From NCBI GenBank assembly GCA_903849265.1, contig CAININ010000036.1:1-33017 (forward strand): 33,017 nucleotides of DNA. The letters are read 5' to 3'. Within the stretch, counting starts at the first letter, position 1; the number at the start of each line of letters is the position of its first letter. Position numbers and translations under genes: made by a program. This DNA comes from an uncultured Acidimicrobiaceae bacterium (lineage in GTDB: Bacteria; Actinomycetota; Acidimicrobiia; Acidimicrobiales; RAAP-2). Positions 3,217 to 14,657 of this stretch are shown here, one piece after another. The notes below the pieces were generated by a model, which was not told where the DNA came from, searched no databases, and was given only the letters and a program-made list of their open reading frames with translations.

Positions 3217-3879
3217 TCAGGGCCCTACGAGCAGGCGCTGTACCTCATCCTCGGCATTGGCCGTGATCAACACCAGCACCTCGTCACCGGCTGCCAGCCG
3301 CGTATCGCCTCGGGGGACGATGAGGTGGTCGGAGCGGACTACGGCCACGACGGTGGCGTCCCGGGGGACACCGAGTTCGGCGATGGTGACGCCGTCTGCC
3401 GGTGAGTCCTCGGCCAGCGTGACCTCCACCAGGTGGGCCGTCCCGCCCTCGAAGTGCAGAAGTCGGACGAGGCTGCCCACGGACACCGCTTCTTCGACCA
3501 GCGCGGTGAGCAGCTGCGGAGTCGATACGGAAACGTCCACGCCCCAGGTCTCGGTGAACAGCCACTGGTTCTTCGGATGGTTGACCCGGGCCACGACCCG
3601 AGGGACGGCGAACTCCTGCTTGGCCAGGAGCGACACGACCAAGTTGTCCTCGTCGTCGCCGGTGGCAGCCACCACCACGTCGACTGTGGCCAGGCCTGCC
3701 GCGTCGAGCGAGGCCACCTCGCAGGCGTCGGCGACCACCCAGGTCACGTCGAGATCGCCTCGTTGGCGGGCCACGACGTCGGGATCCTGCTCGATCAGAA
3801 GCACTTCGTGGCCTGCTGCATGCAGGTCTCCAGCGATGGCGACCCCCACACTTCCGGCACCGGCTATGGCTACCTTCAT
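3217..3879 (-). CDS. TrkA family potassium uptake regulatory protein (NAD-binding + TrkA-C)
   Basis: MKVAIAGAGSVGVAIAGDLHAAGHEVLLIEQDP Rossmann motif; TrkA_C-like C-terminal half. Confidence 0.9.
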   Translation of the reverse strand: MKVAIAGAGSVGVAIAGDLHAAGHEVLLIEQDPDVVARQRGDLDVTWVVADACEVASLDAAGLATVDVVVAATGDDEDNLVVSLLAKQEFAVPRVVARVNHPKNQWLFTETWGVDVSVSTPQLLTALVEEAVSVGSLVRLLHFEGGTAHLVEVTLAEDSPADGVTIAELGVPRDATVVAVVRSDHLIVPRGDTRLAAGDEVLVLITANAEDEVQRLLVGP

Positions 3880-4562
3880 GCGAGCTCCCCGTGGGTGGTC
3901 GTGGTGGAGCCCATCAGCCGCTCCTGGAACTTGGTGAGGGCTCCATCGGTCACCATGAGGTGAAGGACGTCGCCGTCCTGGCCGACGAGATCAGTGAAGT
4001 CGAGTCGGACGACCCCCGCCCTGGTGACCGACACGAGGGTGACCTCGCCCGGCACGTTCAGGTCGGCCAGCCGCTTTCCGGCCCAGCGCTCGGGCAGGTG
4101 GCGCTCGATGAGCGAGATGCGTCCGGTCGGGTCTGACCACTCGCTCTCGAGGTCGTTCGGCAGGAGTCGGTGACGCACCTGGTCGATCGTCCACGAGACG
4201 GTGGCCACGGTCGAGATCCCGAGCCGGAGGTAGATCTGCGCCCGCCGGGGGTCGTAGATGCGGGCCACCACGTTGGGGATCCCGTACGACTCGCGGGCGA
4301 TCCGTGCCGTGAGGATGTTGGAGTTGTCGCCGCTGGTCACAGCGGCAAGTGCCGTGGCGTCATTGGCCCGGGCCGATTCGAGGTCGTCGCGGTCGAACCC
4401 GGAACCCACGATCGTCGCCCCGGGCCAATCGGGCGGGAGGCGACGGAAGGCCTTGGCGTTCCGGTCGATGATGGCCACCGAATGGCCTTGTCCAACGAGC
4501 TCGACGCCTAGGCCGGAGCCGACCCGGCCGCAGCCGACGATGATGATGTGCACGGCCACCAT
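3876..4562 (-). CDS. TrkA family potassium uptake regulatory protein (second paralog)
   Basis: MVAVHIIIVGCGRVGSGLGVELVGQGHSVAIIDRN...; 4-bp overlap with the downstream trkA paralog; ATG at 4562 preferred over the ORF-track start at 4589. Confidence 0.9.
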   Translation of the reverse strand: MVAVHIIIVGCGRVGSGLGVELVGQGHSVAIIDRNAKAFRRLPPDWPGATIVGSGFDRDDLESARANDATALAAVTSGDNSNILTARIARESYGIPNVVARIYDPRRAQIYLRLGISTVATVSWTIDQVRHRLLPNDLESEWSDPTGRISLIERHLPERWAGKRLADLNVPGEVTLVSVTRAGVVRLDFTDLVGQDGDVLHLMVTDGALTKFQERLMGSTTTTHGELA

Positions 4563-4643
4563 GCAACTCGCTTCGCCCCTCCGGCACAACTCATAGCGTC
4601 CGAACGTGGATTACCGGCGCTCAAACGGAGCGTTTTTCCACGC

Positions 4644-4671
4644 ATGACATCCAGGTGGAGCGTGGTCTAAT
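4644..4671 (+). promoter_or_regulatory. Predicted sigma70-type promoter (leaderless) for the KimA/APC-like permease
   Basis: ATGACA (4644-4649) - N16 - TCTAAT (4666-4671), 6 nt before the ATG at 4678. Confidence 0.5.
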
Positions 4672-4677
4672 GGTGAG

Positions 4678-7152
4678 ATGGAGTCCCAGGTGAGTGCCGA
4701 CGGCGAGTCCGCCGCGGGCGTCGGCGCCGTCGGTGGAGTGCCGGAAGGACCCCGCCGCCCCTTAGCCCCGCCTCGCCGCCCGTCGGCTTCCACTGTGGTC
4801 AAGGTCGATCTGCCGGAATCCCTCCGGTACCGAATGAAGAACGCACTGCTCGGCCCGCCGCTGGTGAACGAAAAGCTGGGTGACGAACGGCTGGGACGCC
4901 CGTCCGCACTCGGCGTGCTCGCCCCTGACTGCATCTCCTCTTCGGCCTACGGCACCGAACAGATGCTCACCGTGCTCATCCCGTTCTTCGGTCTGGCCGG
5001 TTTCGTGCTCGTTGTGCCGATCACCATGGCCATCCTCGGCGTGCTGTTCTTCGTCACGCTGTCCTACCTCGACGTCATCGCCTTCTACACCAAGGCCGGT
5101 GGCGCCTATGTCGTGGCCCGAGAGAACTTCGGACCGAAGATCGCCCAGATCGCGGCGGTAGCACTGCTCATCGACTACACGGTGACCGTGGCTGTCCAGA
5201 CCGCCGCTGGTACCGCCGCGCTCACCAGCGCCCTCCCCACGTTGCTGCCGTACACGGTGCCGATCACGGTCGGGGTCATCCTGCTGCTCTTGTACGGCAA
5301 CCTCCGAGGGATCAAGGAGGCCGGCAAGTTCTTCGCCTTCCCGACCTACTTCTTCATCGGAAGCCTCGGCTTGATCGTCCTCATCGGGTATGCGAAGAAG
5401 ATCATGGGGACGTTGGCCGTACACGGCATCCCGGTCCACTCGGCCTCCAACCCCACGGTGCCGATCGGGGGGCATGGGTCCGGGCTCCTCTACGGGGCGG
5501 CCTTCATCATCTTGCTCAAGTCGTTCGCCAACGGCGGCTCCTCGCTCACCGGACTCGAAGCAATCTCCAACGGGGTGGGCGCCTTTCGCGAGCCGACGAG
5601 CAGGAACGCCCGCCAGACCCTGGTCATCATGTCGAGCGTCCTCGCCTTCTTGGTCCTCGGGGTCACGCTCATCGCGCATTGGACCCATGCGATCCCCTAC
5701 GTGTCGGGTTCGCCCACGGTGGTATCCCAAGAGGTCCAGTACGTGCTGGGCACTGGGCCATTCGGCAAGGTGTTCTTCTACGTCGTGCAGCTGGCGACGA
5801 TGCTCATCCTCTACACCGGCGGCAACACAAGCTTCAACGGGTTCCCCTTCCTGGCCAACTTCGTGGCCGAGGACGCCTACCTTCCCAAGCAGCTGACGCG
5901 TCGCGGCCACCGGCTGGCCTTCTCCAACGGCATCATCGTGCTCACGATCGTGGCCCTGGTGCTGATCATCGCCACCGGCGCGCAGCTGTCCTCGCTGGTG
6001 GCGCTCTACGCCATCGGGGTGTTCACCGGCTTCGCCATGGCCGGGGCCGGGATGATCAAGCACCACTTCGACGCCCGTGGACCGAAGTGGCGCCGCGGCG
6101 TTGTCGTCAACGCCATCTCGGCATTCTTGACCGCACTGATCGTCCTCATCTTCGCCACGGTCAAGTTCACCGAGGGCGCCTGGGTGGTCGTGATCATCGG
6201 CCCGATCATGTACTTCGGACTTGTTCGGCTCCATCGTCAGTACGTCGAAGAAGATGAGCAGCTCGAGGAGGGCGCCGCCGAGGCGGCCGAGGCCCCGGTG
6301 CTCAGCCGCCACGCCGTCGTCGTCCTGGTCGACCGGCTCGACATGGCGACAGCCCGTGCCCTCCAGTACGCCCGCACTCTGCACCCGGACGATCTGCGCG
6401 CCATCCACTTCGCACTCGACCCCCAGGAATCGGAGCAGCTCGAGGAAGAGTGGCGACGTCTGGGCTTGTCCGACCTGCCGCTCGACATCCAAGAGTGCGA
6501 GGACCGCCGCCTTACCCGGGCTGCACTCGAGCTGGCGGCGGAAACGGTCGCCGACCGAAAGACCGAGCTGACCATCCTCTTGCCACGTCGGATCTTCGCT
6601 TCGGGGTGGCAGCGGGTGCTACACGACAACACTGCGGACCACATCGCCTCGGCCGTCGGCCACCTCGAGCACGTCAACGCCACCGTCGTCCCTTATCAGC
6701 TCGAGGGGGGCTGGTGGTCGAACCGGCGCGAGTGGCGACGCAAGACCGAGGAGGCCAGCTTGCCGTCGCCGGGAGCGCGGGCAGCGGACAAGGCGGCCGA
6801 TCGGGAGCGGGCGGCCCGAGCTCTGTCCCATCGCGAGGCCTTCGGCGAACGCGCCCGCGGCACCATTCCGATCGCAGACGCCGAGTGGCGGAACCGGGTG
6901 CGGGTGGCCGGACGGGTGCGTTCGGTTCGGGTCCAGCCCCGTGCCGGAACGTCCAACCTCGAGTGCCTCCTGGCAGACGACAGCGGGCAGCTCCTGCTCG
7001 TGTTCCAGGGACGCCGCCGGATCCCCGGAATCCAGCCCGGGGCACGCCTCGTGGTCGAGGGGATGGTGGGCGACTGGGCCCGTCGCCAGGCCATCCTCAA
7101 CCCCGATTACGAGCTCATCGCCGGGCCGGACGCCACCGTCGAGCCTGTCTGA
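4678..7152 (+). CDS. KimA/YdaO-like APC-superfamily permease with USP-like cytosolic domain and C-terminal OB-fold domain
   Basis: DCISSSAYGTEQML, GGAYVVARENFGPKIAQIAAVALLIDYTVTVAVQTAAGTAALTSALP, SFANGGSSLTGLEAISNGVGAF resemble the Bacillus KimA core; cytosolic segment ARALQYARTLHPDDLRAIHFALD; final about 90 aa WRNRVRVAGRVRSVRVQPRAGTSNLECLLADDSGQLLLVFQGRRRIPGIQPGARLVVEGMV resemble an OB-fold nucleic-acid-binding domain. Confidence 0.85.
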   Translation: MESQVSADGESAAGVGAVGGVPEGPRRPLAPPRRPSASTVVKVDLPESLRYRMKNALLGPPLVNEKLGDERLGRPSALGVLAPDCISSSAYGTEQMLTVLIPFFGLAGFVLVVPITMAILGVLFFVTLSYLDVIAFYTKAGGAYVVARENFGPKIAQIAAVALLIDYTVTVAVQTAAGTAALTSALPTLLPYTVPITVGVILLLLYGNLRGIKEAGKFFAFPTYFFIGSLGLIVLIGYAKKIMGTLAVHGIPVHSASNPTVPIGGHGSGLLYGAAFIILLKSFANGGSSLTGLEAISNGVGAFREPTSRNARQTLVIMSSVLAFLVLGVTLIAHWTHAIPYVSGSPTVVSQEVQYVLGTGPFGKVFFYVVQLATMLILYTGGNTSFNGFPFLANFVAEDAYLPKQLTRRGHRLAFSNGIIVLTIVALVLIIATGAQLSSLVALYAIGVFTGFAMAGAGMIKHHFDARGPKWRRGVVVNAISAFLTALIVLIFATVKFTEGAWVVVIIGPIMYFGLVRLHRQYVEEDEQLEEGAAEAAEAPVLSRHAVVVLVDRLDMATARALQYARTLHPDDLRAIHFALDPQESEQLEEEWRRLGLSDLPLDIQECEDRRLTRAALELAAETVADRKTELTILLPRRIFASGWQRVLHDNTADHIASAVGHLEHVNATVVPYQLEGGWWSNRREWRRKTEEASLPSPGARAADKAADRERAARALSHREAFGERARGTIPIADAEWRNRVRVAGRVRSVRVQPRAGTSNLECLLADDSGQLLLVFQGRRRIPGIQPGARLVVEGMVGDWARRQAILNPDYELIAGPDATVEPV

Positions 7153-7380: not shown

Positions 7381-9750
7381 ATGACCCACCTCCTGGCTGA
7401 AGGGGGCTATCAGATCTTCTCACTGGACAGTTCCGAGAAGCTCTGGCTGTACTTCGCACTCGCTTGTTCGCTCGCCGCCATCGTCGTGGCGCTGTTCCTC
7501 GTGCGGGGCGTCCTCGCCGCCGACCAGGGGACAGCCAAGATGCAGGACATCGCCAAGGCGATCCAGGAAGGGGCCGAAGCGTTCCTTTCCCGCCAGTTCA
7601 AGACGATCGGCATCATCATCATCCCGCTGGCCATCCTGATCTTCTTTACCGCCACCAAGGTCACCCATACGGCGACGAGCGCCATCCTGGTTGGCGGCAC
7701 GATGGTCGTGGTCCGTCACACGGTGACCGACCTCACGTTCGCCCAGGCCGGTCTCTACCGGGTCATCTGCTTCCTGGCCGGCGCCATCTGCTCCGGCCTC
7801 ACCGGCTTCATCGGGATGAGCCTGGCTGTGCGCGGCAACGTCCGCACCGCCGCCGCCGCCCGTGAGGGCAAGATGGCTCCGGCCCTCAAGGTCGCCTACC
7901 GGACCGGTGCCATCACCGGCCTGCTCTGCGTTGGTCTCGGCCTGCTGGGCACGACCGTGATCGTCCTGATCTTCCAGAACACGGCCACCGCAGTGCTGAT
8001 CGGCTTCGCTTTCGGCGCCTCGCTGCTCGCGTTGTTCATGCGGGTCGGCGGCGGAATCTTCACCAAGGCGGCCGACGTCGGTGCCGACCTGGTCGGCAAG
8101 GTCGAGGCTGGGATCCCCGAGGACGACCCCCGCAACGCCGCCACCATCGCCGACAACGTGGGCGACAACGTGGGTGACTGCGCAGGCATGGCTGCAGACC
8201 TCTTCGAGTCCTACGTCATCACCATCATCGCCGCAGTCATCCTGGGCGTAACGGCGTTCGGATCGATCGGCCGTGGTGGCGATGCCGCCAAGACGGTCAT
8301 CTTCCCGATCGCCATCCCGGCCATCGGCATCCTGGCCACCATCGTGGGCGTGTTCGTTGTGAAGGCCGGCAAGAAGGACCGCAACGCCATGGCCCCGATC
8401 AATCGGGGCGTCTGGACGGCGGCCATCTTGACCGTCGCCGGATCCGCCATCGTGGCCGGCGCCTACCTCCACTACTGGAAGGCCTTCTACGCCGTCCTGA
8501 CCGGCGTCATCCTCATGCTGGTGGCAAGCCAGATCACCGAGCACTTCACCTCGACCGAGCGTGGCCCGGTGAAGGAAGTCGCCGAGACGGCTCGCACGGG
8601 CCCGGCCACCCTCACCCTCTCCGGCCTGGCCCTCGGCCTCGAGTCGTCGGTGTGGGCGATCATCGCCATCGTCCTGGCCATCGCCGTGTGCATCGGCCTC
8701 GGCGAGGGCAACATCCAGCTCACCTTGTACCTCGTGGCACTCACCGGCATCGGCCTGCTGTCGACCGCCGGCATGATCGTCTCCGAGGACAGCTTCGGTC
8801 CGGTGTCGGACAACGCCGCCGGCGTGGCCGAGATGTCAGGTGAGTTCACCGGCGAGGCCGAGCGGGTCATGGTCAGCCTCGACGCCGTGGGTAACACCAC
8901 CAAGGCCGTCACCAAGGGCGTGGCCATCGGCTCCGCCGTCATCGCCTCGGTAGCCCTGTTCGCCTCGTTCATCGAGACGATCGGGAGCCAGCTCAACCTG
9001 CACCCACCGAGGTTCGCTCCCACAAACTGGCTGTTCGACCTGCCGCAGACATCGATCAACGTGTCTCATCCGACCGTGTTCATCGGCGTGCTCTTGGGCG
9101 GCTCGGTGGCGTTCATCTTCAGCGCACTGGCCATCCGCGCCGTCGGCCGCTCGGCCGGAACCGTCGTCCAAGAGGTGCGCCGCCAGTTCCGCGAGCACCC
9201 GGGGATCATGGACTACACCGAGAAGCCCGAATACGGCAAGGTCATCGCCATCTGCACCGCGGCGAGTCAGCGCGAGCTGGCCACCCCGGCACTTCTGGCC
9301 ATCCTCACCCCGGTCATCGTCGGGTTCGGCATCAACTACTTCGCACTCGGTGCGTTCCTGGTGGGCGCCATCCTGACCGGCCAGCTGATGGCCAACTTCC
9401 TGTCCAACTCGGGCGGGGCGTGGGACAACGCCAAGAAGTACATCGAAGATGGCAACGAAGGCGGCAAGGGATCCGAGGCCCACAAGGCCGCGGTCATCGG
9501 TGACACCATCGGCGACCCGTTCAAGGACACCGCCGGCCCAGCGCTCAACCCGCTGATCAAGGTGATGAACCTGGTATCGCTGCTGATCCTCCCGGCCGTC
9601 ATCACGCTGTCGCACCACACGGCAGCCCGGCTGTCGATCGCCGGTGTCTCGCTGATCGTGCTGCTGGGATCCATCGCCTTCTCCAAGCGCAAGACCGAGA
9701 GCATGGACAGCGACCTTCCCGCCTTCACGCAGCCGGTCGCCCCTCTCTGA
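7381..9750 (+). CDS. hppA: Membrane-bound H+-translocating pyrophosphatase, K+-independent type
   Basis: DDPRNAATIADNVGDNVGDCAGMAADLFESY and EDSFGPVSDNAAGVAEM signatures; GNTTKAVTKG carries the Lys associated with K+-independent enzymes. ATG at 7381 with GAAGGGAG upstream. Confidence 0.95.
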   Translation: MTHLLAEGGYQIFSLDSSEKLWLYFALACSLAAIVVALFLVRGVLAADQGTAKMQDIAKAIQEGAEAFLSRQFKTIGIIIIPLAILIFFTATKVTHTATSAILVGGTMVVVRHTVTDLTFAQAGLYRVICFLAGAICSGLTGFIGMSLAVRGNVRTAAAAREGKMAPALKVAYRTGAITGLLCVGLGLLGTTVIVLIFQNTATAVLIGFAFGASLLALFMRVGGGIFTKAADVGADLVGKVEAGIPEDDPRNAATIADNVGDNVGDCAGMAADLFESYVITIIAAVILGVTAFGSIGRGGDAAKTVIFPIAIPAIGILATIVGVFVVKAGKKDRNAMAPINRGVWTAAILTVAGSAIVAGAYLHYWKAFYAVLTGVILMLVASQITEHFTSTERGPVKEVAETARTGPATLTLSGLALGLESSVWAIIAIVLAIAVCIGLGEGNIQLTLYLVALTGIGLLSTAGMIVSEDSFGPVSDNAAGVAEMSGEFTGEAERVMVSLDAVGNTTKAVTKGVAIGSAVIASVALFASFIETIGSQLNLHPPRFAPTNWLFDLPQTSINVSHPTVFIGVLLGGSVAFIFSALAIRAVGRSAGTVVQEVRRQFREHPGIMDYTEKPEYGKVIAICTAASQRELATPALLAILTPVIVGFGINYFALGAFLVGAILTGQLMANFLSNSGGAWDNAKKYIEDGNEGGKGSEAHKAAVIGDTIGDPFKDTAGPALNPLIKVMNLVSLLILPAVITLSHHTAARLSIAGVSLIVLLGSIAFSKRKTESMDSDLPAFTQPVAPL

Positions 9751-14581: not shown

Positions 14582-14657
14582 GCCTGGGTAGCTCAGTCGG
14601 TAGAGCAACGCACTCGTAATGCGTAGGTCAGGAGTTCAATTCTCCTCCCAGGCTCCA
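14582..14657 (+). tRNA. tRNA-Thr, anticodon CGU, CCA encoded
   Basis: Acceptor GCCTGGG/CCCAGGC, D arm GCTCAGTCGGTAGAGC, anticodon arm ACGCA-CTCGTAA-TGCGT, T arm AGGAG-TTCAATT-CTCCT, discriminator T then CCA; lengths sum to 76 nt. Confidence 0.96.

Follow-up and report, generated by a model that had tools for sequence, protein, structure and literature searches.

The 824-residue protein encoded at positions 4678-7152 of the window (the whole stretch of 33,017 nucleotides analysed here, from an uncultured Acidimicrobiaceae bacterium) is a KimA-type transporter that carries, within a single open reading frame, an OB-fold domain at its C-terminus. We read it, with a probability of roughly 0.6, as a K+/H+ symporter with a fused OB-fold accessory subunit, a tethered cytosolic regulatory module that would work together with the TrkA-type proteins CeoB and CeoC. 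The main surprise of the analysis is the repeated association of this OB family with unrelated K+ uptake systems, along with the case that can be made for KimA as the partner of CeoB/CeoC. A literature search of limited extent, which preceded the Kdp finding described below, found no description of a KimA-OB fusion or of an OB encoded in a Kdp operon.

Architecture of the fused gene and its locus

The fused gene lies on the forward strand (4678-7152), begins with ATG and has no internal stops. Its product comprises a LeuT/APC-fold K+/H+ symporter core (residues ~51-525, positions 4828-6252), a PPAT-like cytosolic domain with an altered c-di-AMP pocket (residues ~540-680, positions 6295-6717, delimited by alignment with the KimA cytosolic domain), a linker running from the cytosolic domain to the OB-fold (6694-6882), modelled with low confidence and containing one long helix, and the C-terminal OB-fold domain (residues ~736-815, positions 6883-7122). 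Divergent from it, across an intergenic region of 124 bp (4554-4677), the reverse strand carries a gene for a CeoB-like TrkA/RCK protein (3876-4553; TrkA_N 2e-22, TrkA_C 3e-5), followed with an overlap of 4 nt by one for a CeoC-like TrkA/RCK protein (3217-3879; TrkA_N 2e-26, TrkA_C 5e-19), and the GxGxxG motifs are kept in both products. The downstream neighbour, on the forward strand, encodes a membrane H+-pyrophosphatase (7381-9750; PF03030, E = 5.6e-244). In the window's family a common order is sigma factor, HAD, CeoC, CeoB, KimA-OB, H+-pyrophosphatase and topA.

Scanning GTDB genomes with a narrow OB alignment as query, a first alignment having been too diverse, gave 80 named loci with 72 fused ORFs, mostly from Acidimicrobiaceae/Acidimicrobiales MAGs (Acidimicrobiia) and also from Dormibacterota, with one locus labelled Chloroflexi and one labelled Acidobacteriota. 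In the phylum search a frame was called fused when it combined a high score with a long frame; the length of the open frame alone is misleading because long frames with weak scores resemble RecG. Linker lengths among the 72 fused ORFs range between 2 and 147 aa (median 44), a spread more in keeping with a tethered partner than with a rigidly placed domain.

Membrane core and transport site

Residues 51-672 match KimA of Bacillus subtilis (PDB 6s3k/8b70/8b71; phmmer against 6s3k, E = 2.1e-98), which bears out the first-pass annotation in its view of the membrane core as KimA-like, and Pfam AA_permease_2 (PF13520) is found at residues 88-495. The best solved Foldseek matches of the full-length model are the KimA structures 8b70, 8b71 and 6s3k, with a TM-score (by target) of 0.82 for 8b70. 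In KimA, D36, Y43, T230 and Y377 make up the K+ site, while T121 serves as gate and E233 in proton coupling (PMC6994465, PMC10284832). The window protein keeps all six residues, and among 163 KimA homologues D36, Y43, Y377, T121 and E233 are practically invariant and T230 nearly so (4 have S). Sequence, K+/H+ residues and modelled fold thus all place the protein among the predicted K+/H+ symporters of the KimA/KUP type. A USP-like middle domain had also been proposed, but Pfam gave no USP call there, and the counterpart in the KimA structure, its cytosolic domain, is described as PPAT-like (PMC6994465).

The model of the full-length fusion protein, a monomer with a pLDDT of 78 and a pTM of 0.65, shows in order the membrane helices, a cytosolic domain of five strands, a poorly ordered linker that includes a long helix (pLDDT < 50 at model residues 638-667, helix at 664-688) and the OB-fold. 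The position of the latter is not fixed by a monomer model of such modest confidence.

The OB-fold domain

The OB-fold family PF01336 ('tRNA_anti-codon') matches at residues 741-814, with 25.5 bits when the whole protein is searched, below the curated cut-off of 27, and above it with the C-terminal segment alone (29.2 bits for 140 aa, up to 30.2 bits); of 55 OB segments aligned, 53 give the match as well. AlphaFold2 folds the C-terminal 107 aa into six strands (mean pLDDT 87.9, pTM 0.78), and the best Foldseek matches of this model are OB folds, namely human SSB, archaeal RPA domains, AspRS and PolC. Domain search and structure prediction, which had been put forward as checks on the protein's end, thus agree with the OB-fold proposed for it; the proposed start, about 6874, was slightly early, the OB proper beginning near nt 6883-6898. 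A sequence search of the PDB with the OB alone returned designed beta-propellers and one RubL chain with poor E-values, which we judged to be chance matches.

The same invariant positions (R, D..G, G-R, G..G, N-P) recur in the OB domains fused to KimA, in separate OB proteins and in those of Kdp operons described below. Among the aromatic positions of the alignment the F of 'VF.GR' alone shows no variation, and the Y of 'NP.Y' hardly any. Both the linker (pI 11.1) and the OB (pI 10.4) are basic, and the nearest OB relatives by sequence are the wedge OBs of RecG.

Linkage of KimA, the OB protein and CeoB/CeoC

CeoB/CeoC genes are present in the locus of 60 of the 72 fused ORFs, at a median gap of 266 bp; 4/72 lack them and another 8/72 lie on contigs too short to tell. 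The H+-pyrophosphatase gene is in the locus of 45/72. The first-pass annotation had described the OB-fold as a separate protein encoded, in other actinobacteria, near a TrkA/CeoBC-permease cluster, and this is borne out: out of 35 separate-OB loci picked by OB alone across the phylum, 32 have KimA and CeoB/CeoC within about 8 kb. Three architectures can be distinguished. In the first, the separate OB gene is clustered with those of KimA, CeoB and CeoC, typically as KimA<- ->CeoB->CeoC <-OB; in the second, it overlaps or abuts the KimA gene on the same strand, either at the 3' end (L036, L038, L165) or at the 5' end (L196, L253, L255); in the third, the OB is fused to the C-terminus of KimA. 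One-strand arrangements occur in L142, L144 and L172, with ceoB, ceoC and kimA-OB co-directional in L142 and L144. Because the OB is fused to KimA here and stands as a separate protein beside KimA and CeoB/CeoC elsewhere, the Rosetta-stone analysis that had been suggested supports a functional linkage. In some loci a gene for a DUF3159 protein lies between the OB gene and ceoC (L173, L174, L181, L182), and in others the gene upstream of the separate OB resembles a putative RsbW-type anti-sigma kinase (L040, L042, L043, L045).

The distribution of CeoB points the same way. With orthologues defined at E<=1e-50, CeoB turns up in 50 of the 54 KimA-bearing genomes and in 0 of the 7 that lack KimA (61 genomes, Fisher p = 7.6e-7; p = 1.6e-4 with one genome per family), p-values that are weakened by kinship and by the linkage of the two genes as neighbours. 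TrkH is anti-correlated with both KimA and CeoB in the same 61 genomes; it was found in 0 of 37 genomes of the window's family and was not found in the genome of the window itself (82% complete). The locus thus has the TrkA/RCK proteins of a Trk system, CeoB and CeoC, and no TrkH/TrkG membrane subunit was found to go with them. CeoB follows KimA, not TrkH, and part of this linkage may come from adjacent genes having been gained and lost together.

These data bear on the idea that KimA-OB and CeoB/CeoC perform separate K+ functions and merely share a locus, with CeoB/CeoC acting on another channel. As far as we are aware, there is no precedent for an RCK protein gating a LeuT-fold transporter, which counts for such a separation, as does a finding from Streptomyces venezuelae, where the KimA-like Vnz_27465 is numbered adjacent to an RCK_C protein, Vnz_27460, which did not bind c-di-AMP (PMC10117811). 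However, the linkage is maintained in many families despite rearranged gene order and altered orientation, one-strand arrangements included, and CeoB tracks KimA rather than TrkH, so that we regard a mere sharing of the locus as unlikely. Fusion, synteny and presence/absence together point to KimA as the membrane subunit of CeoB/CeoC, with the OB protein as an additional component of the system.

The c-di-AMP pocket

The c-di-AMP pocket of KimA is lined by R337, V457, P479, A481, V506, H579, N580, Q581 and S582, and tryptophan at A481 or S582 has been used to block c-di-AMP binding (PMC10284832). At these nine positions the window protein has, in the same order, K, E, L, D, F, H, D, N and T, so that in the alignment only the histidine is identical to the c-di-AMP-binding set, R/K and S/T being conservative replacements. 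The substitutions include A481D, F568R, N580D and Q581N, together with V457E in the helix preceding the cytosolic domain. They are shared by the fused group, where E457 occurs in 113/113 members, D481 in 102, R568 in 102 and D580 in 100, with R, A or N at position 581 in most; unfused KimAs of the cluster type mostly retain V457, H579, N580, Q581 and S/T582. We considered whether the fusion had caused the altered pocket and rejected this, since unfused members of the subfamily carry the same residues. Because unfused members of the same clade also have an altered pocket, the change as seen in the alignment either predates the fusion or arose independently of it, and it is best described as a trait of the subfamily, not a consequence of the fusion.

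A cyclic dinucleotide in the KimA pocket is not favoured, since most residues of the c-di-AMP site are replaced in the subfamily, and a built-in contact between E457 and R568 might stand in for the ligand; c-di-AMP may nevertheless bind, as R/K337, H579 and T/S582 are kept. The organism probably makes c-di-AMP, to judge by the DAC domain detected in its genome (4.2e-25); DAC domains were seen in 46 of 61 genomes. Some genomes in which no DAC was detected (G019, G020, G022, G023) carry the fused gene too. The RCK_C signature for c-di-AMP, (I/L)(I/L)x2DxRx5N(I/L)(I/L) (PMC10117811), is absent from CeoB and CeoC, even when I/L/V/M are allowed. No ydaO riboswitch or other Rfam regulator was found within the window, including the 124-bp intergenic region; the sole Rfam match in the window is a tRNA gene at 14582-14654.

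OB proteins beside Kdp and other transporters

In relatives of the window, second, paralogous copies from the same OB family occur in Kdp operons. The order is kdpA-kdpB-kdpC-OB in L217-L227 and L250, often with the OB gene overlapping the end of kdpC (for example L219:6524-6856 and L226:2468-2791), and OB-kdpA-B-C in L215 and L216; at least 13 further Kdp operons that were sampled have no OB. Order-wide, 13 same-strand OB matches lie no more than 3.1 kb from kdpA, in several families as compared by eye, where a rough estimate from 1-2 OBs per ~3-Mb genome gives a chance expectation well under one. The Kdp OBs keep R, D, G, G, G, G and N-P, and the R after the first listed G is nearly invariant. 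In one locus (L234, G043:C68) kdpABC is immediately preceded, in the same direction, by a gene for a KimA-OB fusion.

Separate OB genes also stand directly behind an H+-pyrophosphatase gene in 8 distant loci (L168, L169, L176, L177, L198-L201), at gaps of 4 to 86 bp with one overlap, and in six Dormibacterota loci (L154, L155, L157, L158, L161 and L164) a standalone OB paralogue comes after a gene for an MFS transporter, in the same direction (gap -3 to 97 bp, the OB being at about 6.9-7.3 kb of those loci). We looked for a link to K+ in a K+-dependence of the H+-pyrophosphatases and discarded it, all those examined having GN[TS]TKA whether or not an OB is adjacent; the lysine form is presumably that of the K+-independent type. 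The window's own enzyme (7381-9750) has the form GNTTKA.

The fusion, synteny and presence/absence also draw attention to an unstudied OB protein of Kdp operons. The occurrence of the OB as a fusion to KimA here, and as a separate protein beside KimA and CeoB/CeoC in other actinobacteria, suggests a hitherto unrecognised working role for the OB protein in bacterial K+ uptake. A broader proposal, which we hold tentatively and at somewhat less than even odds, is that the OB constitutes a dedicated accessory family of K+ uptake serving machines of unrelated mechanism (the KUP-type KimA, the P-type pump Kdp, perhaps the H+-pyrophosphatase) and that KimA is the missing membrane subunit under the control of CeoB/CeoC in actinobacteria, mycobacteria included.

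The variety of partners can be read otherwise. The OB could be a general accessory or assembly factor of ion transporters that binds no ligand, acting in stability, membrane targeting or a dimer contact, with the fusion doing nothing more than securing stoichiometry. That one OB family stands behind such unrelated folds as KimA, Kdp, H+-pyrophosphatase and MFS fits this, as does the highly variable linker (2-147 aa). What it accounts for less easily are the residues invariant across KimA-OB, separate OB and Kdp-OB, several of which may only shape the fold, while a purely structural role is harder to see for R, D and N, and we consider a ligand-free factor improbable. Far less probable is an OB with single-stranded nucleic acid or tRNA as its ligand, the permease being a membrane anchor or a nucleic-acid sensor. 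The fold relatives (SSB, RPA, AspRS), the RecG wedge OBs as nearest sequence relatives and the basic linker and OB (pI 11.1 and 10.4) speak for it, and the fold with its RecG/AspRS-type similarity may leave room for a nucleic-acid ligand; but the recurring genomic partners in the loci examined are ion transporters and K+ regulators, and only one aromatic residue is invariant and one nearly so. Because the OB travels with membrane ion transporters, the context does not indicate such a ligand.

Age and stability of the fusion

A tree of the KimA membrane core (107 rows) places the fused rows, 58 of 58, in one clade with an SH-aLRT of 100, together with 8 unfused rows. The fusion label changes 4 times on this tree, against a mean of 35 in shuffles, and as judged from it the fusion is old and stable. 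The inner clade holds three unfused rows: two of them have an overlapping separate OB, and the third runs off the end of its contig, an OB being found right at the beginning of a different contig from that genome. KimA of Streptomyces plasmids (L212, NZ_CP107835.1; L213, NZ_CP109514.1), with 51% identity and 650 aa, falls inside the fused clade; at both loci the OB domain is absent and there is no CeoBC or OB neighbour. This is probably a loss of the OB after horizontal transfer, and the OB is therefore not strictly required for the transporter.

In a first genome search, permease and OB were within one ORF in 31 of 31 relatives' loci, and tandem fused copies occur (L048, L150). The genome of the window has a second fused paralogue with 54% identity (G000:C70:2150-4441; L002, L205), on a 6.2-kb contig on which no CeoBC match was found beside it. 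A frameshift or an assembly error joining two genes, which the first-pass annotation had named as what would refute its proposal, is ruled out for practical purposes by the 72 fused ORFs from independent assemblies and by this second paralogue.

Proposed mechanism

The reading that we prefer, a symporter with a tethered OB regulatory module, can be put as follows. The window protein would be a KimA-type symporter of the KUP/APC kind with an accessory OB subunit fused at its C-terminus, and elsewhere KimA, CeoB, CeoC and a separate small OB protein would form a four-gene K+ uptake module. KimA would take up K+ together with H+ as a domain-swapped dimer, and the OB, on its flexible linker, would face the cytosol alongside the PPAT-like domains and the RCK proteins CeoB and CeoC. 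There it could pass on to the transporter a cytosolic signal, be it a small nucleotide as ligand or CeoB/CeoC in their nucleotide-bound state, and so take over part of the control that c-di-AMP exerts in Bacillus KimA. We infer the physical complex, the cytosolic placement, the regulatory role, the ligand and the sign of control from the architecture and the genomic associations. The natural KimA-OB fusion offers a ready construct for structural work.

Comparison with known systems

The closest known system is KimA (YdaO) of B. subtilis, of the KUP family, which resembles the window protein in its core and PPAT-like domain and in the K+/H+ residues and is its closest solved fold. Unlike it, the window protein bears a C-terminal OB and has V457, A481, F568, N580 and Q581 replaced, and its gene adjoins ceoBC in a window without a ydaO riboswitch.

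Work on CeoB and CeoC treats them as the principal K+ uptake system in Mycobacterium tuberculosis, whose KimA we take to be Rv2690c and whose OB-fold protein of the ceoBC locus is presumably Rv2694c. That Trk system has two TrkA-type proteins, as found beside the fused gene, but its membrane subunit is left unnamed (PMC13163235), whereas the present data suggest KimA. The CeoBC literature sampled for M. tuberculosis makes no mention of Rv2690 or KimA, nor did the titles and abstracts of papers that name Rv2690c or Rv2694c provide a lead. The OB-fold protein of actinobacterial ceoBC loci shares with the window's domain the OB family, the kind of locus and the invariant residues; there it is a separate gene, usually on the strand opposite to ceoC and in some families with DUF3159 alongside, whereas here it is fused to KimA.

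In Streptomyces, a synteny survey (2026) places an OB-fold protein, cluster 13947, near trkA and kdpD/kdpE (PMC13118837); in the passage on this protein the likeness is one of synteny only, with neither a fusion nor a KimA partner described. Finally, the OBs of the RecG wedge and AspRS type (PF01336, PF17191) are the nearest OB families by sequence, but the window's OB family differs from them in having its own set of 'GR..[IV].G' and N-P-x-Y, and in having transporters as its partners.
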